This document shows, piece by piece, positions 6,383-37,889 of a stretch of 64,000 nucleotides of DNA. The notes beneath the pieces were generated by a model. That model was not told the origin of the DNA, searched no databases, and was given only the letters and a program-made list of their open reading frames with translations. Every line of letters starts with the position of its first letter. The stretch's first letter is position 1. The DNA is from Saccharothrix longispora (GTDB lineage Bacteria > Actinomycetota > Actinomycetes > Mycobacteriales > Pseudonocardiaceae). Location: positions 248,001 through 312,000 of the forward strand of contig NZ_NSDM01000004.1 of NCBI RefSeq assembly GCF_030852425.1, read 5' to 3'. The position numbers and the translations under genes are program-made.

Positions 6383-9300
6383 GTGACCGAACCGGCCTAC
6401 CTCCGCTTCCCGCACCTGCACGGCGACCTCGTCACGTTCGTGGCCGAGGACGACGTGTGGCTGGCACCCCTCGACGGGGGCCGGGCCTGGCGGGTGACCG
6501 CCGACCAGGTCCCGGTGTCCCACCCGCGCTTCGACCCGACCGGCACGCACCTCGCCTGGACCAGCCGCCGGGACGGCGCGCCCGAGGTCCACCTGGCGCC
6601 GGTCGACGGCGGCCCGGCGACCCGCCTGACCCACTGGGGCGACTACTCGACCGGTGTGCGCGGCTGGACGCCGGGCGGCGAGGTCGTCGCCGTCACGGCC
6701 GCCGGGCAGGCGTCGGGCAACCGCAAGTGGGCGCACGCCGTGCCGACCGACGGCGGCCCCGCCGACCGGCTGCCGTTCGGGTGGGTCGACGACGTGTCGT
6801 TCGGCCCCGCCGGCCAGGTGGTCGTGACCTCCGTCTACGGCCGCGACCCCGCGTGGTGGAAGCGGTACCGGGGCGGGGCGGCGGGCAAGCTCTGGGTGGA
6901 CGTCGAGGGCGCCGGCGAGTTCGACCGCATCCTGCCGGAGCTGACGTCGTCGCTCACCTCGCCGGTGTGGGTGGGCGACCGCATCGCGTTCCTGTCCGAC
7001 CACGAGGGCGTCGGCAGCCTGTACTCGGTGCTCCCGGACGGCTCCGACCTGCGCCGGCACACCGAGCAGGAGTTCTACGCGCGCGTCGCGTCCACCGACG
7101 GCACGCGGGTCGTCTGGCAGCACGCGGGCGAGCTGTGGGTCCTCGACGGGCTGGACGCCGAGCCGCGCCGGGTCGACGTCGCGCTGGGCGGTCCCCGCAC
7201 GGCGCGCCGGCCGCGACCGGTCGGCTCGCGCCCCGACGACTTCCACCCGGACCGCACCGGCCGCGCGAGCGTCGTGGAGGTGCGCGGCACCGTGCACTGG
7301 GTGACGCACAGGGACGGGCCGGTGCGGGCGCTGGCCGAGCAGCCGGGCGTGCGGGCCCGCCTGCCGCGCGTGGTGGGCGACGCCGTGGTGTGGGTGACCG
7401 ACGCCGACGGCGAGGAGGGCCTGGAGTTCTCGCCGGTCGGCGGGGTCGAGCCGGGCAACGAGCCGCGCCGGGTCGCGGTCGGCAGGCTGGGCCGGGTGCT
7501 GGAGCTGGTCCCCTCGCCGGACGGGCGGCGGCTCGCGGTGGCCACCCACGACGGGCGGCTGCTGCTGGTGGAGGTCGAGTCGGGCGAGGTCCGCGAGGTG
7601 CTGGCCGGGGCGAACCCGCACGTGGACGACCTGGCGTTCTCCCCGGACTCGAACTGGCTGGCCTGGGCGCACCCGGGTCCGCGCCCGCTCCAGCACATCC
7701 GGATGACGAACACGACCGACCTGTCCGTGGTGGACGTGACGCCGCTGCGGTTCTCCGACTTCTCGCCGACGTTCACCGAGGACGGCCGGCACCTGGCGTT
7801 CCTGTCGGTGCGCAGCTTCGACCCGGTGTACGACGCGCACGTGTTCGACCTGGCGTTCCCCACCGGCTGCCGCCCGTACCTGGTGCCGCTGGCGGCGACC
7901 ACGCCGTCGCCGTTCGACCCGATGCGGCTGGGCCGGCCGGTCGGCGACGACCCGTCCGACAAGGACAAGGACAAGGACGACGAGAACCCGATCACCGTGG
8001 TCGACCTGGACGGCCTGGCCGACCGGGTGGTCGCGGTGCCGGTCGGCGCGGCCAGCTACGCGGGGCTGACCGCGGTCAAGGGCGGCCTGCTGTGGCTGCG
8101 CTCGCCGCTGCGCGGGGTGCTCGGCGACGACCTGCCGAGCGGCGCCCGCCCGCCGCGCGCGGTGCTGGAGCGGTTCGACCTGGCCAAGTCGCGCACCGAG
8201 GTGCTGGTGGACGGCCTGGACGCGTTCGACGTGACCGGGGACGGGCAGCGGGTCGTCGTGCGGGACGGCGGCGACCTGCGGGTCGTGCCCGCCGACCGCA
8301 AGGTCGACCCGGACGACGGCGACTCCGTCGAGGTGGACCTGTCCCGCGTGCGGGTCGTGGTGGACCGGGCCGCCGAGTGGCGGCAGGCGTACGCCGAGGC
8401 GGGCCGGCTGATGCGGGACAACTTCTGGCGCACCGACATGGGCGGCGTGGACTGGGAGGGCGTGCTGGAGCGCTACCGGCCGCTGGTGGACCGGCTGGGC
8501 AGTTACAGCGACCTCCTCGACCTGCTGTGGGAGGTGCAGGGCGAGCTGGGCACGTCGCACGCCTACGTGATCCCGGCGCACGGCACGCGCGGTCGCGCGG
8601 TGGGGCTGCTCGGCGCGGACCTGGCGCGCGACGAGTCGGGCGCGTGGCGGGTGACCAGGGTGATCCCGGGGGAGACCTCGGACCCGGCGGCCCGCTCGCC
8701 GCTGGCCGCGCCGGGTGTCGCGGTGCGCGCCGGCGATTCGATCGTCGCCGTGGACGGGCGGCAGGTGGACCCGCGCACCGGTCCCGCGCCGCTGCTCGTG
8801 GGCACGGCGGGCAAGCCGGTGGAGCTGACGGTGCGCCCCGGCGGCGGCGGCGAGCCCCGCCGGGTCGTGGTGGTGCCGCTGGAGGACGAGGAGCCGCTGC
8901 GCTACCACGCGTGGGTGGCCGACCGGCGTGCGCGCGTGCGGGAGCTGTCCGACGGGCGGGTGGGCTACCTGCACGTGCCGGACATGATGGGCGCGGGCTG
9001 GGCGCAGCTGCACCGCGACCTGCGGGTCGAGCTGGCGCGCGAGGCGGTGGTGCTCGACGTGCGGGAGAACGGCGGCGGGCACACGTCCGAGCTGGTCGTC
9101 GAGAAGCTCGGGCGCAGGATCATCGGCTGGTCCGTGGCGCGCGGCTACACCACCGCGGACAGCTACCCGGGCGACGCGCCGCGCGGGCCGGTGGTGGCCA
9201 TCGCGGACGAGTTCGCCGGGTCCGACGGCGACATCGTCAACGTGGCCATCAAGGAGATGGGCATCGGGCCGGTCGTCGGCACCCGCACGTGGGGCGGGGT

Positions 9301-9553
9301 GATCGGCATCGACATGCGGTACCACCTGGTCGACGGCACGCTGGTCACGCAGCCCCGCTACGCCACCTGGTTCGCCGGTCCCGGGTGGGGCGTGGAGAAC
9401 CACGGCGTGGACCCGGACGTGGAGGTCGTGATCACGCCGCAGGACCGGGTGGCCGGTCGTGACCCGCAGCTCGACACGGCCGTGCGGCTGGCGCTGGAGG
9501 CGCTGGAGACCCGACCGGCCGCCACTCCGCCGCAGCTCCCGCCGCTCGGTTGA
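6383..9553 (+). CDS. tricorn protease homologue
   Basis: A large cytoplasmic serine protease that trims oligopeptides released by the proteasome or other proteases. The 1,056 residues match the usual tricorn length. The N-terminal two thirds are beta-propeller repeats (LPFGWVDDVSF, LSDHEGVGSLYSV, FSPDSNWLAWA). A PDZ-like segment follows around residues 750-850, then a C-terminal S41-type core. The catalytic set is visible: Ser-His in GTSHAY (about residue 724), the nucleophile in EFAGSDGD (about 945) and Glu in GVENHGVD (about 1003). A Lys/Asp-rich KDKDKDD insert lies near residue 530. The start is GTG with GGGAGG directly upstream. No signal peptide is seen. Confidence 0.95.
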   Translation: MTEPAYLRFPHLHGDLVTFVAEDDVWLAPLDGGRAWRVTADQVPVSHPRFDPTGTHLAWTSRRDGAPEVHLAPVDGGPATRLTHWGDYSTGVRGWTPGGEVVAVTAAGQASGNRKWAHAVPTDGGPADRLPFGWVDDVSFGPAGQVVVTSVYGRDPAWWKRYRGGAAGKLWVDVEGAGEFDRILPELTSSLTSPVWVGDRIAFLSDHEGVGSLYSVLPDGSDLRRHTEQEFYARVASTDGTRVVWQHAGELWVLDGLDAEPRRVDVALGGPRTARRPRPVGSRPDDFHPDRTGRASVVEVRGTVHWVTHRDGPVRALAEQPGVRARLPRVVGDAVVWVTDADGEEGLEFSPVGGVEPGNEPRRVAVGRLGRVLELVPSPDGRRLAVATHDGRLLLVEVESGEVREVLAGANPHVDDLAFSPDSNWLAWAHPGPRPLQHIRMTNTTDLSVVDVTPLRFSDFSPTFTEDGRHLAFLSVRSFDPVYDAHVFDLAFPTGCRPYLVPLAATTPSPFDPMRLGRPVGDDPSDKDKDKDDENPITVVDLDGLADRVVAVPVGAASYAGLTAVKGGLLWLRSPLRGVLGDDLPSGARPPRAVLERFDLAKSRTEVLVDGLDAFDVTGDGQRVVVRDGGDLRVVPADRKVDPDDGDSVEVDLSRVRVVVDRAAEWRQAYAEAGRLMRDNFWRTDMGGVDWEGVLERYRPLVDRLGSYSDLLDLLWEVQGELGTSHAYVIPAHGTRGRAVGLLGADLARDESGAWRVTRVIPGETSDPAARSPLAAPGVAVRAGDSIVAVDGRQVDPRTGPAPLLVGTAGKPVELTVRPGGGGEPRRVVVVPLEDEEPLRYHAWVADRRARVRELSDGRVGYLHVPDMMGAGWAQLHRDLRVELAREAVVLDVRENGGGHTSELVVEKLGRRIIGWSVARGYTTADSYPGDAPRGPVVAIADEFAGSDGDIVNVAIKEMGIGPVVGTRTWGGVIGIDMRYHLVDGTLVTQPRYATWFAGPGWGVENHGVDPDVEVVITPQDRVAGRDPQLDTAVRLALEALETRPAATPPQLPPLG

Positions 9554-9613
9554 TCGAAACCACCCGGGCGCGTGATCCCGTGGTGGTTGCGGCCACCGGT
9601 CCCGGACCGACCA

Positions 9614-10555
9614 ATGGACAGCACGTGGGTTCGTCGTCGGGGGGTCGGGTTGAGTCATCGGTCGTTGCCGCGCTCGGGGCGCGGGTGCTTCGCGGCGGTG
9701 GTGCTGCTGCCGCTGGCGGCGGCGGGCGGGTTGGCGGCGCTGCTGGCGACCGTCGACCGGCCCGCCCCGCCCGCGGGTGACGTGGTCGGCGCGGTGCCGG
9801 CGAGCGGCCGGCACGCGCCGGTGAGCACGCGGCCCGGCGTGCCGCCCGCGCCGTGGGAAGAGGTGACGGGCGCGCCCGCGGACCGGCGGGAGGTCCAGCG
9901 GGGCAGGCCCGAGCCGACCGCGTGGCCGCGGCCCGACGAGCCGCGGCGCACGGACGAGCCGCGGCCGGGGCGGCCACCGGACCCGGCGGCGCCGTGGACG
10001 GTGGTGCTGCCGACGTTCCCGTCGCCGCCGTCCCCGCCGACGGGGGCCGGACCGACGAGCACGACGTCGGTCCCGCCGAGGCCGTCGTTGCCGGGCCTCT
10101 CGCCGGACCACCCGACGAGCGCGCCGGGCACGACCGAGCCGACGCCCCCGGGCACGACCGGGCCGGACCCCGGCGCGCCGACGACGGAACCGGGTACGCC
10201 CGAGCCGGGTACGCCCGAGCCGGGTACGCCCGAGCCGGGTACGCCCGAGCCGGGTACGCCCGAGCCGGGTACGCCCGAGCCGGGTACGCCCGAGCCGGGT
10301 ACGCCCGAATCGGGTACGCCCGAGCCGGGTACGCCCGAATCGGGTACGCCCGAGCCGGGTACGCCCGAATCGGGTACGCCCGAGCCGGGTACGCCCGAAT
10401 CGGGTACGCCCGAGCCGGGTACGCCCGAATCGGGTACGCCCGAGCCGGGTACGCCCGAATCGGGTACGCCCGAGCCGGGGCCGACCGAGCCGGGGCCGAC
10501 CGAGCCGGGGCCGACCGAGCCGGTCTCTCCGGGAGCGGGGCGGCGGATCGGGTGA
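9614..10555 (+). CDS. proline-rich membrane-anchored protein with (E-P/S-G-T-P)n repeat
   Basis: Predicted single-pass or secreted protein of 301-313 residues. A transmembrane stretch (FAAVVLLPLAAAGGLAALLA) is followed by a long Pro/Thr/Arg-rich extracellular region and, at 10187-10471, 19 tandem 15-bp units encoding E(P/S)GTP, then three EPGPT units. The first eight units are EPGTP; after that ESGTP and EPGTP alternate, a 30-bp higher-order repeat. ATG 9614 lacks a ribosome site, whereas TTG 9650 has a G-rich one and codon bias is clean only after it. The opposite strand is open through the whole gene with the same third codon positions, so GC3 cannot decide between strands. The membrane segment favours this one. 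Function unknown. Confidence 0.55.
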   Translation: MDSTWVRRRGVGLSHRSLPRSGRGCFAAVVLLPLAAAGGLAALLATVDRPAPPAGDVVGAVPASGRHAPVSTRPGVPPAPWEEVTGAPADRREVQRGRPEPTAWPRPDEPRRTDEPRPGRPPDPAAPWTVVLPTFPSPPSPPTGAGPTSTTSVPPRPSLPGLSPDHPTSAPGTTEPTPPGTTGPDPGAPTTEPGTPEPGTPEPGTPEPGTPEPGTPEPGTPEPGTPEPGTPESGTPEPGTPESGTPEPGTPESGTPEPGTPESGTPEPGTPESGTPEPGTPESGTPEPGPTEPGPTEPGPTEPVSPGAGRRIG

Positions 10556-10800
10556 CGCGGTGGAGGCGGCCGGTCGGGGCGGGGGCAGGGGGTCGCCCCG
10601 CGCACGCCCGGCGCGCCGGTGACGAAGGCCACGGCGAGCGGCGACGTGCCGCCGGCGAACGCCTCCCGCCGCTCGAACGTCCTCGTTGTGGTGGTGGAGC
10701 GCACCACCGCGACGACGACCGGGAAGGCCACCAGGATGCCGACGACCAGAGCCGCCTCCGACCACGCGCGCGGTCCGACGAGCCCGTCGGCGGGGTGCAC
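9655..10800 (-). CDS. membrane protein with Gly/Val/Pro repeat tail, antisense to the proline-rich gene
   Basis: Between 10556 and 10800 no plausible plus-strand gene exists, but this minus frame has almost pure G/C third positions and a clear membrane helix (AALVVGILVAFPVVVAVV) after a GTG start at 10800. A GAGGGG ribosome site lies 6 bases upstream. After RTFERREAFAGGTSPLAVAF the frame runs without a stop through the 15-bp repeat, where it reads G-S/D-GVP units, to a stop at 9655. The N-terminal ~80 residues look genuine. The low-complexity remainder may be coding or may be a shadow of the facing gene. The true 3' end is uncertain; function unknown. Confidence 0.45.
   Translation of the reverse strand: MHPADGLVGPRAWSEAALVVGILVAFPVVVAVVRSTTTTRTFERREAFAGGTSPLAVAFVTGAPGVRGATPCPRPDRPPPPRHPIRRPAPGETGSVGPGSVGPGSVGPGSGVPDSGVPGSGVPDSGVPGSGVPDSGVPGSGVPDSGVPGSGVPDSGVPGSGVPDSGVPGSGVPGSGVPGSGVPGSGVPGSGVPGSGVPGSGVPGSVVGAPGSGPVVPGGVGSVVPGALVGWSGERPGNDGLGGTDVVLVGPAPVGGDGGDGNVGSTTVHGAAGSGGRPGRGSSVRRGSSGRGHAVGSGLPRWTSRRSAGAPVTSSHGAGGTPGRVLTGACRPLAGTAPTTSPAGGAGRSTVASSAANPPAAASGSSTTAAKHPRPERGNDR
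10187..10516. repeat. 15-bp tandem repeat (19 units plus 3 variant units)
   Basis: Nineteen head-to-tail copies of GAGCCGGGTACGCCC or its GAATCG variant run from 10187 to 10471, followed by three GAGCCGGGGCCGACC units to 10516. From unit 9 the variants alternate strictly, so the later array is a 30-bp repeat expanded as a block. Since 15 is a multiple of three and no unit contains a stop in any frame, the array is open in all six frames. Copy number is likely to vary between strains by slippage or unequal recombination. Confidence 0.95.
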
Positions 10801-33578: not shown

Positions 33579-33607
33579 TTGACATTGCGTAACGTGAACC
33601 CGAGAAT
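33579..33607 (+). promoter_or_regulatory. consensus-like promoter of the peptide-modification locus
   Basis: TTGACA (33579-33584), a 17-bp spacer and GAGAAT (33602-33607) form a near-consensus sigma-70/HrdB promoter, rare in this GC-rich DNA. The ~100 bp around it are notably AT-rich. Transcription would start near 33614, about 40-48 bases before the peptide gene. Confidence 0.7.
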
Positions 33608-33661
33608 ACGGCTGGTGTATCGCCTGAATGCGTGATGCACAGTGGGAGAGAGGTGACCGCG

Positions 33662-33784
33662 ATGTCTCTCGAGGAGCTGGCCGCACAGCTTCGCCGCGGT
33701 GAGATCGAGGATCGCGCGCTGGCAGAGTACTCCGCGGAGTACGCCACCGCGGAAAAGCGTTTCAACAGCAAGAAAGACGACTGA
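33662..33784 (+). CDS. 40-residue putative precursor or scaffold peptide
   Basis: A short gene under a consensus-like promoter and directly upstream of two modifying-enzyme genes. The N-terminal half (MSLEELAAQLRRGEIEDRAL) is an amphipathic helical leader-like segment. The C-terminal half is rich in Glu, Tyr, Ala, Ser, Thr and Lys and ends FNSKKDD. There is no Cys and no Trp. ATG 33662 is used; GTG 33653, in frame, has the better spacing to GGGAGAG and would add three residues. Only 2 bases separate its stop from the ATP-grasp start, so the two are co-translated. About 78 percent of third positions are G/C, lower than in neighbouring genes. The precursor role is inferred from context. Confidence 0.7.
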   Translation: MSLEELAAQLRRGEIEDRALAEYSAEYATAEKRFNSKKDD

Positions 33785-33786
33785 GC

Positions 33787-34914
33787 ATGACCGCTGCCGG
33801 CCGGGGGGACGAACCAGTCCCCCCGGCCGACGCCGTCAGAGCCGTGCCCCCGGTCAGGCCCACCCCGCTGCTGCTGCAAGGCCAGGACTACCTCTTCCGC
33901 TCCCAGCCGAAGAACCTGGACTTCCAGGAGCAGGTGCACAAGCTCGGGATGGTCGACGAGGGCGACGGCAGTCCCGTGCCCTGCGTGCTCGTCCTGGCCC
34001 GCGCCGCCGACATGGAGATGAACGAGCTCTCCATCGCGCTCGCCGAGCGCGGCATCCGGATGGCCCGCATCGACGCCGACCGCTCGACGGACCTCCCCCT
34101 CACCGTCTACACCGACCAGCCGCTGCTGGAGCTGGACCGCTGGCTGCTGCGCCCGCTGCTGGTCTGGCGCAGGCACTTCGAGCTGGCGTCCATCCCGGTC
34201 GAACCCGGCACGCTGGCCGGCGCGTACGCCGTGGACCAGTGGGGCGCGGTGGCGAACTGGCTGGCCAGCCGGGGCGACTGGGCGCACGTCAACCCCAGCC
34301 GGGCGACCGCCCACCTCGACCGGCTCACCCAGCTGTCGGACGCCGCCGCGTTCGGGCTGCGCGTGCCGCGCACCGCGGTGACCACCAGGCCCGGTCGCAC
34401 CCGGCCCGGCGGCGCGCGGTGCATCGTCAAGACCTCCGGCCGCCACCTGCTCGAACCGCGCCCCGGCATGCAGCACGGTCTGTTCCCGCGCCCGCTGGAG
34501 ACCAGCCGCGCCGGTGACGTGCCCGAGTCCGCGCCGGTCATCGTGCAGGAGTACGTGCCGTCCGAGACCGAGCTGCGGGTGTTCGTGGTCGGGGAGGAGT
34601 GCCTGGCCTTCCAGGTGGACAAGCTGGACCCGGCGCAGCTGTGGGTGGACCCCGGCGCGGTCCGGGTGAGCCCGGTCGACGTGTCGCGCGGGCTGGCCGA
34701 CCGGCTGCTGGCGCTGGCGCGGCACTGGCGGCTCCAGGTGGCCGCGTTCGACCTGCTCGTCGCGGGCGGCGACCACGTGTTCCTGGAGGTCAACGTCAAC
34801 TGCGACTGGCGCTGGTTCGAGCACCGCGCCGGTGACGACCGGGTGTCGCAGGCCGTGCACGGGTGGGTGGCGGCGCGGTTCAAGGAGCTCCTGGGTGCGG
34901 GCAAAGGTCGCTGA
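33787..34914 (+). CDS. ATP-grasp enzyme, MvdD/graspetide-ligase-like
   Basis: A 375-residue ATP-grasp ligase. The N-terminal third (PVPCVLVLARAADMEMNELS...ERGIRMARIDADR) is a pre-ATP-grasp domain like those of ribosomal peptide ligases MvdC/MvdD/TgmB. The ATP-binding lobes follow: CIVKTSGRHLLEPRPG supplies the Lys, VIVQEYVPSETELRVFVVGE the adenine-binding strand, and VAAFDLLVAGG with VFLEVNVNCDWRWFE the metal-binding Asp/Glu/Asn set. Such enzymes activate side-chain or C-terminal carboxylates of a peptide to make esters, amides or amino-acid adducts. It follows the peptide gene by 2 bases and overlaps the SagB-like gene by 20, so the three act together. The exact product is unknown. Confidence 0.85.
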   Translation: MTAAGRGDEPVPPADAVRAVPPVRPTPLLLQGQDYLFRSQPKNLDFQEQVHKLGMVDEGDGSPVPCVLVLARAADMEMNELSIALAERGIRMARIDADRSTDLPLTVYTDQPLLELDRWLLRPLLVWRRHFELASIPVEPGTLAGAYAVDQWGAVANWLASRGDWAHVNPSRATAHLDRLTQLSDAAAFGLRVPRTAVTTRPGRTRPGGARCIVKTSGRHLLEPRPGMQHGLFPRPLETSRAGDVPESAPVIVQEYVPSETELRVFVVGEECLAFQVDKLDPAQLWVDPGAVRVSPVDVSRGLADRLLALARHWRLQVAAFDLLVAGGDHVFLEVNVNCDWRWFEHRAGDDRVSQAVHGWVAARFKELLGAGKGR

Positions 34915-35965
34915 GCACGCGACGCTGTTCTACCAGGACGGCGCCGTGGTCTGGGACGACTACCTCCACCACCGGCAGTTCGCGATCAGCGAGACCGCGG
35001 AGCTGCTGTGCCGCAAGTTCACCGGGTTCACCGACGTCGACGAGCTGCTGGCCCCGCTGGAGGAGGCGGACCGGGTCGCGCTGCGCAAGGTGGTCGACGA
35101 GCTGGTCGAGGCGGGCGTGCTGGTCGTGGAGGGCTCGCCGCGCCACGAGGAGGAGCGCCGCCTGATCGCCGGCTGGCGCGGGTGGGGGCCGTCGGCCCGG
35201 CACTTCCACTTCGCCAGCCGCACCCTGGCCGACGCCCCGTACCAGGGCTCCGACGAGCACGACGCCGCGCTGGAGGCGAAGCTCGCCGTGGAGCCGCCGC
35301 CCCCGCCGTTCCGCAGCACCGGCGGCCCCGCCGTGCCGCTGCCACCGCTGCCGGAGGAGCCCGACTGGGGCGGGCGGGGCCTGCTGGACGTGCTGCTGGC
35401 CCGTCGCACGACGCGCGAGTTCGGCGACGCCCCCGTCACCGCGGCGCGGTTGGGCGAGCTGCTGGCCGTGCTCGGCGGCCCGTCCCCCGCCCGGTCGCGC
35501 ATCGGGCGCACCGGGACGGTGTTCAAGACCAGCCCGTCCGGCGGCGGGCGGCACCCGGTGGAGCTGTACCTGCACGCGCGCGGCGTCGTCGGGCTGGACG
35601 ACGGGTGGCACCACTACGACGGGCTCGCGCACGCGCTGGAGCCGATCGGGGTGTGCTGGGGGCCGGCGGAGATGGCCGCGGCGGCGGGGGACCAGGACTG
35701 GGTCGGGGGCGCGCCGGTGGTGATCGCGTACACCGGACTGCTCGAACGGACTAGATGGCGTTACGACACGTCACGGGCTTACCGTGTTGTCCAAATGGAC
35801 GTCGGCCATCTGTCGCAAACCGCATATCTGGTTGCTTCTGCTCTGGGTTTTGGTATCGGCTTCACCGCAGCATTGCGGGATGAGCTGCTGGAACAGGCAC
35901 TCGGCTGTGACGCTTATCACGAAGTCGTACTCGGGATGAGCGCGCTGGGGCCATTACCCGAATGA
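34895..35965 (+). CDS. SagB-type flavin oxidoreductase with N-terminal PqqD/RRE-like domain
   Basis: A 356-residue protein of the SagB/ThcOx nitroreductase family. Residues about 8-80 (FYQDGAVVWDDYLHHRQFAI...ELVEAGVLVV) look like a winged-helix PqqD/RRE-type peptide-recognition domain. From about residue 155 comes the FMN domain, with LLARRTTREFGDAPVTAARL, KTSPSGGGRHPVELYLHAR and the C-terminal MDVGHLSQTAYLVASALGFG. GTG 34895 has AAGGAG 7 bases upstream and overlaps the ATP-grasp gene. The last 71 codons (35750-35962) abruptly use A/T third positions (32 of 71) and include a TTA, while the preceding stretch is almost pure G/C. Family members oxidise azolines or other peptide groups; the substrate here is presumably the 40-residue peptide. 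Confidence 0.88.
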   Translation: MRAKVAEHATLFYQDGAVVWDDYLHHRQFAISETAELLCRKFTGFTDVDELLAPLEEADRVALRKVVDELVEAGVLVVEGSPRHEEERRLIAGWRGWGPSARHFHFASRTLADAPYQGSDEHDAALEAKLAVEPPPPPFRSTGGPAVPLPPLPEEPDWGGRGLLDVLLARRTTREFGDAPVTAARLGELLAVLGGPSPARSRIGRTGTVFKTSPSGGGRHPVELYLHARGVVGLDDGWHHYDGLAHALEPIGVCWGPAEMAAAAGDQDWVGGAPVVIAYTGLLERTRWRYDTSRAYRVVQMDVGHLSQTAYLVASALGFGIGFTAALRDELLEQALGCDAYHEVVLGMSALGPLPE

Positions 35966-36052: not shown

Positions 36053-36126
36053 GCCCCCGTAGCCCAATGGGCAGAGGCAGGCTCCTTAAAAGAGTCACAG
36101 TACGGGTTCGAATCCCGTCGGGGGCA
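36053..36126 (+). tRNA. tRNA with anticodon UAA, short variable loop (Leu-like)
   Basis: A 74-nt cloverleaf: acceptor GCCCCCG/CGGGGGC, discriminator A36126, anticodon stem GGCTC/GAGTC (one G-U), loop CTTAAAA with anticodon TAA at 36087-36089, five-nt variable loop, T arm ACGGG-TTCGAAT-CCCGT. The anticodon reads UUA, a Leu codon. The D arm (3-bp GCC/GGC stem, AAT-GG-GCAGA loop) and A73 also resemble Leu tRNAs. Normal Leu tRNAs have a long variable arm, which is absent here. No CCA is encoded. It lies 87 bases after the SagB-like gene, which itself contains a TTA codon. It may be a non-standard or specialised tRNA. Confidence 0.85.
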
Positions 36127-36221
36127 CGTCAAGCGTGCTTCGAGTTCACCCATCCGCCTGGTGGCCGAACACGGCACCCATACGACGTGCCGGTTTCACC
36201 CGCACCGGTATCGGCGTGCCG

Positions 36222-36257: not shown

Positions 36258-37889
36258 TCACCCGCGGGCGCGCACCCAGTCGGCGACGACCTCGCCGAGC
36301 ACGGACAGCGGCAGGGCGCCGCCGCCGATCAGCACGTCGTGGAACGCCCGGATGTCGAACCGGTCGCCCAGCGCCCGCTCGGCCTCCTCGCGGATGCGCA
36401 GGATCTCCAGCCTGCCCACCATGTACGCCAGCGCCTGGCCGGGCGCGGCGAGGTAGCGGTCGACCTCGTTCTCGATCTCCACGAGCGCCAGCGGCGTGTT
36501 CTCGCGCAGGTAGTCCACGCCCCGCTGCCTGCTCCAGCCGTGCGCGTGCAGGCCGGTGTCCACGACGAGCCGCCCGGCGCGCATCGAGTCCAGCGCCAGC
36601 ATCCCCAGCCGGGCCACGTCCGAGGAGTACAGGCCCATCTCGTCGGCCAGCCGCTCGGTGTAGAGGCCCCAGCCCTCCGAGTAGGCCGTGAAGCCGGCGA
36701 CGCGGCGCAGCAGCGGCAGGTCGGTGAGCTGCTGGGCGAGCGTGATCTGGAAGTGGTGCCCCGGCACGGCCTCGTGGAACGCGATGGCCTCGGCCTGGTA
36801 GCGGAACCGCTCCTCGACGCGGTGGGTGTTCGCGAAGTAGGTGCCCTGCCGCGTCCCGTCCAGCGACGGCGGCATGTAGTACGCGGTGGGCGCGCCCGGC
36901 GCGTCGGCGGCGGGCACCGCCTCGACCTGGCAGCGCTGCTCCGGCAGCCTGCCGAACCAGCGCGGCGCGGCCTCCTCCGCCCTGGTCACGGCCTCGCGGG
37001 CGGCGCCGAGCAGCTCCTCCTCGGAGGCCCAGCGCAGCTCCGGGTCGGTGCGCATCCGCTCGAAGACCTCGGCCGGGTCGGACGTGCCGAACACGCGGGC
37101 GCCCAGCTCGGCGTACTCGTCGCGGAGCTTCGCCATCACGTCCAGGCCGGTCCGGTGCAGCTCCTCCGGCGTGCGGTCGGTCGTCGTCCGCACGCGGGCC
37201 AGCGCCGCGTACGTCGCGTCGCCGCCGGGCAGCCAGCTCAGGCCCGCGCGGTCCTCGGGCCGGGCGTCGAGGCCGGCGACGACGTCGCGGTACTCGGCGA
37301 ACGCGGGCCGCACGACCTCGGCGAGCAGTCGGTCCCGCTGCGTGGTGAACGCCTCGCCGCCCGCGGGCCGGGCCAGGGGGTCCTCGTCGGCGGCCAGGTA
37401 GCGGTCCAGGTGCGCGACGGCCGCGTCCACCAGGTGCCGCACGGGCGTGCGGCCCGCCGTCGCGCCGTCCAGGTGCCGCTCCGCCACCCGGCGCAGGAAC
37501 TCCGGCACCGCGGCCAGCCGGTCCAGGTAGGCCCGCTCGGACTCCTCGCCGGACAGCGCGGTCATCGGCAGCACGGTCAGCACCTCGCCCGCCGGGGCGA
37601 AGAACGAGTCGGTGATGGTGTACTCCACGCCGCGCGCGTCGAGGTGGTCCACCAGCGCCTCGGCCTGCCGCACGACCACGGACGCGGTCACCGGGTCGTC
37701 GTCGGCGGGCAGCGCGCGGGCGCGGGCGGCGATGTCCAGGGCCCGCGCCCGGATCGCCTCCTCGGTCCCGGCCCGGTGGTCGGGCAGGAGGTGGTCGTAG
37801 CCCGGCACGCCGTTCACCGTCGCGCCCAGCGGCGAGTGGGACAACACCAGGTCGAGCAGTTCGTCGGCCAACTCGGCGGTCGTAGCCAT
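36258..37889 (-). CDS. DUF885 family protein (metallopeptidase-like)
   Basis: A 543-residue predicted cytoplasmic protein of the DUF885 family, with a gluzincin-like active site: AIAFHEAVPGHHFQ contains an HExxxHH-type metal motif, followed by a downstream Glu in YSEGWGLYTERLADEMG. The segments TAYYMPPSLDGTRQGTYFAN and ALAYMVGRLEILRIREEA are family hallmarks. These proteins are thought to be carboxypeptidase-like, but no substrate is established. Start ATG 37889. Divergent from nothing nearby; 55 bases of AT-rich DNA separate it from the response regulator's stop. Confidence 0.9.
   Translation of the reverse strand: MATTAELADELLDLVLSHSPLGATVNGVPGYDHLLPDHRAGTEEAIRARALDIAARARALPADDDPVTASVVVRQAEALVDHLDARGVEYTITDSFFAPAGEVLTVLPMTALSGEESERAYLDRLAAVPEFLRRVAERHLDGATAGRTPVRHLVDAAVAHLDRYLAADEDPLARPAGGEAFTTQRDRLLAEVVRPAFAEYRDVVAGLDARPEDRAGLSWLPGGDATYAALARVRTTTDRTPEELHRTGLDVMAKLRDEYAELGARVFGTSDPAEVFERMRTDPELRWASEEELLGAAREAVTRAEEAAPRWFGRLPEQRCQVEAVPAADAPGAPTAYYMPPSLDGTRQGTYFANTHRVEERFRYQAEAIAFHEAVPGHHFQITLAQQLTDLPLLRRVAGFTAYSEGWGLYTERLADEMGLYSSDVARLGMLALDSMRAGRLVVDTGLHAHGWSRQRGVDYLRENTPLALVEIENEVDRYLAAPGQALAYMVGRLEILRIREEAERALGDRFDIRAFHDVLIGGGALPLSVLGEVVADWVRARG

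Follow-up and report, generated by a model that had tools for sequence, protein, structure and literature searches.

The window, as we call the whole stretch of DNA analysed here, comprises 64,000 nucleotides (nt) of Saccharothrix longispora (assembly GCF_030852425.1, contig NZ_NSDM01000004.1) and carries, one behind the other, the genes of a 40-residue peptide, an ATP-grasp ligase and a SagB-type flavin mononucleotide (FMN) oxidoreductase. An earlier, sequence-only reading of the window had described this order, with the ligase gene beginning 2 nt past the stop codon of the peptide gene and the SagB gene overlapping the ligase gene by 20 nt, behind a near-consensus promoter TTGACA-N17-GAGAAT, and all of these details were confirmed. 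The promoter is the sole promoter-like site found between 33400 and 36260, where shuffled sequence gave a mean of 0.1. The coordinates of the features are collected in Table 1.

Table 1. Features of the peptide-ligase-SagB locus, in positions of the window
Feature	Position	Strand	Basis
Promoter TTGACA (33579-33584), 17 nt, GAGAAT (33602-33607)	33579..33607	+	conserved spacer; sequence scan and alignment
Imperfect inverted repeat GTGTATCGC / GTGATGCAC, 3' of the promoter	33615..33640	.	by eye
Ribosome-binding site GAGGTGA of the peptide gene	33650..33656	+	same or close form in the upstream alignment
Gene of the 40-residue peptide, proposed precursor, MSLEELAAQLRRGEIEDRALAEYSAEYATAEKRFNSKKDD	33662 (ATG)..33784 (TGA)	+	reading frame, conservation, pN/pS
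Codons of the C-terminal KKDD, proposed modification site	33770..33781	+	tail counts across relatives
ATP-grasp ligase, graspetide-synthetase-like	33787..34914	+	family scores, predicted fold
GC-rich hairpin just 3' of the ligase start codon	33798..33829	+	covariation, folding z-scores
SagB-type FMN oxidoreductase with extra N-terminal domain	34895..35965	+	family score, model, relatives

Relatives of the locus were compared in a set of 103 loci; 73 of these are named loci, and 30, among them that of the window, were obtained by searching 200 genomes of the family. The ligase was matched in 72 of the 200 genomes at E 1e-20 (G192 holding only a relative of 39% identity), the 30 loci being the best 30 of these 72, and the two sets may overlap in genomes and hence are not independent. 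The sequence-only reading had suggested looking for the peptide next to ATP-grasp/SagB pairs. In front of homologous ATP-grasp genes it proved real and kept, lying 5' of the ligase gene in 102 of the 103 loci, while the exception, L103, stops at a contig edge. The 102 peptides comprise 41 distinct sequences of 39 or 40 residues and start with ATG (84 loci) or TTG (18 loci). For the 40-residue type (75 loci, 39 distinct DNA sequences), the pooled ratio of nonsynonymous to synonymous differences per site (pN/pS) was 0.21, with a pS of 0.40 and a pN of 0.087, and pN exceeded pS when the same DNA was read in the other two frames. These values reject a chance reading frame and show that purifying selection acts on the encoded peptide. 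Conservation extends along its full length, the N-terminal half reading MSxxELA...LAEYxxEYxxA; the earlier description of this half as leader-like is supported, and the tail resembles a modified end. No match near any cut-off was obtained for the peptide in a Pfam and NCBIfam scan, and a search of 249 genomes of the order with the peptide profile returned nine matches, all in genomes already among those carrying the ligase.

The peptide ends in KKDD in 101 of the 102 loci and in RKDD in the remaining one, never with any residue beyond, and this tail is invariant across 12 named genera. The script used for finding the peptides demanded a basic-acidic end, so that any other end would have registered as a missing peptide; none did. 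In most loci the codons AAG-AAG-GAC stand at Shine-Dalgarno distance from the ligase start, and the gap between the two genes is -4 to +6 nt in 101 of the 102 loci as called by the script, so that KKDD might be kept solely because the ligase gene needs these codons for ribosome binding, the tail having no part in any chemistry. We reject this as the whole story and hold it to be very improbable: both Asp residues lie outside the purine core and are nevertheless invariant, while the last codon alternates between GAC (64 loci) and GAT (38), the second Lys is encoded by AAA in 25 of the 102 loci, and an in-frame Ser insertion in the peptide family leaves the tail intact. KKDD also persists where the ligase starts far downstream behind an AGGAGG of its own, 56 nt away in L075 and likely about 70 nt away in L076, where this start was recognised by eye and the script had called a nearer one; being sisters in the ligase tree, these two loci may count as one event.

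Both by sequence and by structural Z-score, the ligase matches graspetide macrocyclases better than RimK or LysX, with RimK, LysX and ArgX among its next structural neighbours after the graspetide enzymes. Sequence and predicted fold identify it as an ATP-grasp ligase of the graspetide-synthetase fold, with scores that stay below the cut-offs of the graspetide families (82 bits versus 350 for TIGR04187, 49 versus 425 for MvdC and 47 versus 475 for MvdD). It is present as a single copy in the window's genome and yields one match in nearly every genome carrying it, and the ligases of the named Saccharothrix are 83-89% identical to that of the window. A spread by plasmids was rejected, no match at E 1e-20 being found in 72,556 plasmid records. 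In the Actinosynnema locus L044 (5428-7062), the open frame of the ligase extends about 190 residues upstream, up to the stop codon of the peptide.

The SagB frame is open from 34832, and the GTG taken as its start (Table 1) has an ATG or GTG at exactly the same place in 13 of 13 relatives examined. Its SagB-family dehydrogenase domain scores 104 bits against TIGR03605 (cut-off 78.4). The sequence-only reading had also assigned to this protein an N-terminal domain resembling PqqD and the recognition element (RRE) of ribosomally synthesised and post-translationally modified peptides (RiPPs); a Pfam PqqD match was not found, but the AlphaFold model, showing strands and then helices in about residues 1-95, and the alignment of ThcOx with the whole protein from residue 1 make such a domain plausible.

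SagB was found after the ligase in 22 of the 73 named loci and not in the other 51, among which L045, L053 and L054 end at most 0.3 kb past the ligase and are uninformative, while L082 ends about 1 kb past it. The bearers belong to Saccharothrix, Umezawaea, Actinosynnema, Solihabitans, Streptoalloteichus, Longimycelium and Actinoalloteichus; no SagB was found in the named loci of Lentzea, Kutzneria, Saccharopolyspora, Crossiella and Allokutzneria, nor in L093. In two genomes of the window's own genus, L186 and L187, peptide and ligase are intact but SagB is reduced to remnants, L186 retaining about 19 N-terminal and 86 C-terminal residues and L187 the C-terminal 38. On a ligase tree of 79 rows, which has a very long outgroup and an uncertain root, the presence of SagB needs at least seven changes, five of them forced by well-supported branches. 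Further pseudogenes in L007, L010, L011, L038 and L041 were rejected, as their in-frame stops precede the start codon of the relatives and appeared because the query P0003 had 21 extra residues; the true start was confirmed for L041 and deduced for the other four. SagB-like matches elsewhere in the genome (E 1e-15) were seen in several genomes lacking an adjacent SagB, for example G142 and G158, but in just one of ten ligase-carrying genomes of genus g8 and in none of ten of genus g25. Such genes could replace the adjacent SagB in some genomes, which speaks against its full dispensability. The product of the ligase is thus probably useful without this SagB. The trio of peptide, ATP-grasp protein and SagB, previously taken as the defining unit, therefore does not hold as such; the core unit is the peptide plus the ligase, with a conserved promoter of their own and a covarying hairpin between the two.

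With regard to this promoter, 80 of 83 distinct upstream regions have their best TTGAC site at a distance of 82-98 nt upstream, and 23 of the 24 that were aligned retain CTTGAC. An element C[A/G]CCTGAA, forming the middle of the inverted repeat, is present in 18 of the 24 aligned rows, and the repeat is a possible operator or 5' hairpin. A regulon with a common promoter was rejected, since a 31-nt promoter pattern allowing up to three mismatches has a single occurrence in each of 10 genomes of the window's genus. For the hairpin behind the ligase start, 22 loci were picked from 79 distinct segments with a bias towards clear stems; in these, 8 of 13 pairs changed on both sides, and pairing was realised in 90.3% of cells versus 45-59% in slid versions. 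Over all 79 segments the folding z-score had a mean of -1.9, with 35 of them below -2, whereas at six control offsets the mean lay between -0.54 and +0.07 and the number below -2 between 0 and 13 of 79; the signal is weak or absent in Saccharopolyspora and others. The hairpin probably lowers expression of the ligase relative to the peptide.

Graspetide systems (MdnB/MdnC, PsnB, CdnC, PruB) resemble the locus in the fold and sequence of the ligase, in a short precursor adjoining it and in a tail whose Lys and Asp could be linked by an omega-amide. Differences are the ligase score under the TIGR04187 cut-off, a candidate core of just four residues at the very C-terminus, a three-gene unit without a transporter or protease gene, and a fixed genomic place instead of a mobile cluster. 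The window peptide is, in addition, without the Phhx(1,2)h leader motif and the GG-like site, both as defined in PMC8939145, which many but not all known graspetide precursors have; it contains neither Pro nor GG, and some relatives have one Pro but, by eye, no Phhx(1,2)h. With the LysX-LysW pair and the PEARLs the locus would have in common that ATP is spent on forming an amide bond to a small carrier, either peptide or protein. Unlike in those systems, no pathway genes were seen in the KKDD loci, and the ligase, for which LysX is a fold neighbour, is nearer to the graspetide enzymes. PEARLs are a separate family, proposed in passages of PMC11117183 to descend from ATP-grasp proteins. The azole dehydrogenases SagB, McbC and ThcOx differ from the present case in having a YcaO partner: the genome's single YcaO match lies on contig C6 and the window on C34, which bears out the earlier statement that no cyclodehydratase is nearby. 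The KKDD peptide has no conserved Cys, and the Lys of the WKY motif of ThcOx, which we take to be catalytic, is replaced by Arg in the window SagB and its nearest relatives.

The main text of PMC8939145 (2022) describes an ATP-grasp "branch 6" with related precursor clusters 367 and 1115 without the usual motifs, in which most loci contain a SagB-like enzyme and others adenylate cyclase or pheganomycin-like genes; the pathways, predicted and uncharacterised there, were considered RiPP pathways "possibly outside of graspetide class". In precursors without GG and Phhx(1,2)h, in the ATP-grasp enzyme and in the SagB-like nitroreductase this group agrees with the locus presented here, and its adenylate cyclase and pheganomycin-type neighbours resemble those of our distant relatives L131-L135, named by reading. 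As far as the main-text description allows a comparison, the KKDD family and branch 6 very likely belong to the same wider family. The earlier statement that the locus fits no characterised class was consequently too strong, the ligase being nearest to graspetide macrocyclases and a group with ATP-grasp and SagB-like enzymes having been predicted in 2022. KKDD has no occurrence in that main text, nor were SagB loss, the promoter, the hairpin or the variant tails CKSCHGG and CGKGCH met in it, and in the literature searched, this main text included, we did not find the KKDD tail and the SagB loss described. The main text of a 2026 graspetide survey (PMC13097080) contains neither SagB nor nitroreductase, mentioning general oxidoreductases and dehydrogenases.

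The variant tails come from two genomes of another genus (2 of 62 searched), in which a peptide is accompanied by a ligase, a SagB and an MFS transporter, the last named by reading. The ligases are 34-36% and the SagB proteins 42-43% identical to those of the window, and the peptides end in MICKSCHGG (G192, L136) and PCGKGCH (G693, L185). Lys is the sole residue type common to KKDD and both variant tails; Asp and Glu are not. Leader homology between KKDD and variant peptides is only suggested by a profile comparison. Upstream of 25 further ligase relatives outside the KKDD family, the script filter found no convincing peptide, and on a second look only that of L164 (the same as L185) was convincing. 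Of 14 loci whose SagB relative is not a neighbour of this ligase, 10 have, by eye, another short peptide in front of the SagB gene (38-45% identity; L149-L152, L154-L158 and L162), these peptides being various, mostly acidic and about 34-41 residues long; some of the SagB-only loci have AfsR-like regulators and MFS exporters nearby, named by reading, and they are possibly a separate SagB-only RiPP group.

Our preferred reading, to which we give an even chance of being correct, is that the locus is of the RiPP type and that its ligase forms an isopeptide within the KKDD tail or onto it, with SagB as an optional tailoring enzyme. The peptide would consist of an N-terminal recognition half and the invariant C-terminal KKDD and would be partnered with a ligase of the graspetide branch. 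The ligase would spend ATP on activating one of the tail carboxylates as an acyl phosphate, which would then be joined to an amine. This amine is most likely a Lys side chain within that tail, so that a small Lys-Asp isopeptide ring would result; in loci that retain SagB, this enzyme may bind the same peptide via its N-terminal domain and oxidise the tail further. The tail as substrate, the bond formed and the role of SagB are what we infer. A Lys-Asp isopeptide is the simplest product, because the ligase is of the graspetide type and Lys amines, Asp carboxylates and the C-terminus are the sole functional groups conserved in the tail. Lys-Asp bonds are known for this enzyme family, as the main text of PMC13097080 reports such a linkage in corallotide. 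Several points weigh against this reading: a KKDD ring would be unusually small, the ligase scores far under the TIGR04187 cut-off, the window peptide is without Phhx(1,2)h and GG, and conservation of the KK codons may partly reflect Shine-Dalgarno selection for the ligase gene. The variant tails, moreover, contain Lys but neither Asp nor Glu, which speaks against a Lys-Asp bond being obligatory throughout the wider family, and the profile comparison of KKDD and variant peptides gave a probability of 12% at E 0.0025.

The strict C-terminal position of KKDD and the acid-free variant tails make a serious rival of another chemistry, in which the ligase would couple an amine or amino acid from outside to a tail carboxylate, either at the C-terminus or on an Asp side chain, the peptide serving as a carrier or scaffold like LysW or the PEARL peptides and SagB, where present, oxidising the attached group; we consider this possible, at clearly less than even chance. 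All 102 peptides stop at KKDD or RKDD, which would be expected of a tail whose C-terminal carboxylate is important, variant tails without Asp or Glu still offer a free C-terminus, and RimK, LysX and ArgX are among the next structural neighbours behind the graspetide enzymes. A precedent for chemistry on a scaffold peptide via an acyl phosphate is given by the PEARLs, described in passages of PMC11117183. Graspetide macrocyclases, however, outmatch RimK and LysX, and among 12 SagB-less loci listed no shared gene for making or releasing an attached molecule was seen. A ligase relative of 37% identity (L131, P0002-like) adjoins a 25-residue peptide, MQKEFEDFMRQYEASRARLNKSETE, in a set of genes (L131 8017-11178 and 11476-13739) that, named by reading, presumably encode a PGM1-like ATP-grasp protein, an amidinotransferase and a type III polyketide synthase and would be pheganomycin-like, a setting that also favours ligation of an outside amine.

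That the peptide instead assists the ligase, as a small partner, an activator or a regulator, while the true substrate of the enzyme is elsewhere in the cell, appears unlikely to us. It would agree with the conservation of the peptide over its whole length, not in the core alone, and with a single-copy ligase at a fixed place behind an NDH-2-like gene in 72 of the 73 named loci. Variants with a roughly similar N-terminal half, however, carry unrelated tails beside homologous enzymes, and unrelated short peptides precede SagB relatives away from the ligase, both of which fit a precursor better.

The NDH-2-like gene, named by reading, lies upstream, the one remaining locus beginning inside the ligase. 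On the opposite strand, at 36258-37889, a DUF885 protein is encoded whose sequence HEAVPGHH we read as an HExxH motif, so that the previous claim of no protease nearby needs correction in view of this putative motif. A DUF885 protein with HExxH adjoins 17 of the 73 named loci, all 17 with SagB, and was also seen beside the SagB remnants of L186 and L187 and close to L151 and L152, two SagB-only loci situated elsewhere in the genome. A tRNA-Leu (taa) gene occupies 36053-36127, directly 3' of the SagB gene. A PqqB gene is located at most 25 kb from the ligase in 37 of the 72 ligase-carrying genomes, a proximity for which common ancestry of the region can account; 17 of the 72, the window's genome included, had no PqqB match at E 1e-25, and at that threshold they speak against a dependence on pyrroloquinoline quinone (PQQ). 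L066 contains a PQQ cluster (7532-10675) with its own pqqA-like frame (10583-10675), and, with the window's genome having no PqqB at that threshold, an identity of the peptide with PqqA was rejected.

RiPP cores usually change fast. A tail frozen in 12 named genera while SagB comes and goes speaks for a role within the producer, not for a weapon. The KKDD peptide might be a conserved cellular factor of the Pseudonocardiaceae and not an antibiotic precursor, namely a carrier or the precursor of a cofactor for normal physiology, comparable to LysW, PQQ or mycofactocin, with the ligase acting on the invariant C-terminus and SagB adding a clade-specific oxidation; we put this forward tentatively, as rather less probable than its opposite. 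The two-gene system of peptide and ligase is small enough for reconstitution in one tube, which would reveal the role of uncharacterised graspetide-like ligases with SagB neighbours and would show whether SagB flavoenzymes act outside azole chemistry.

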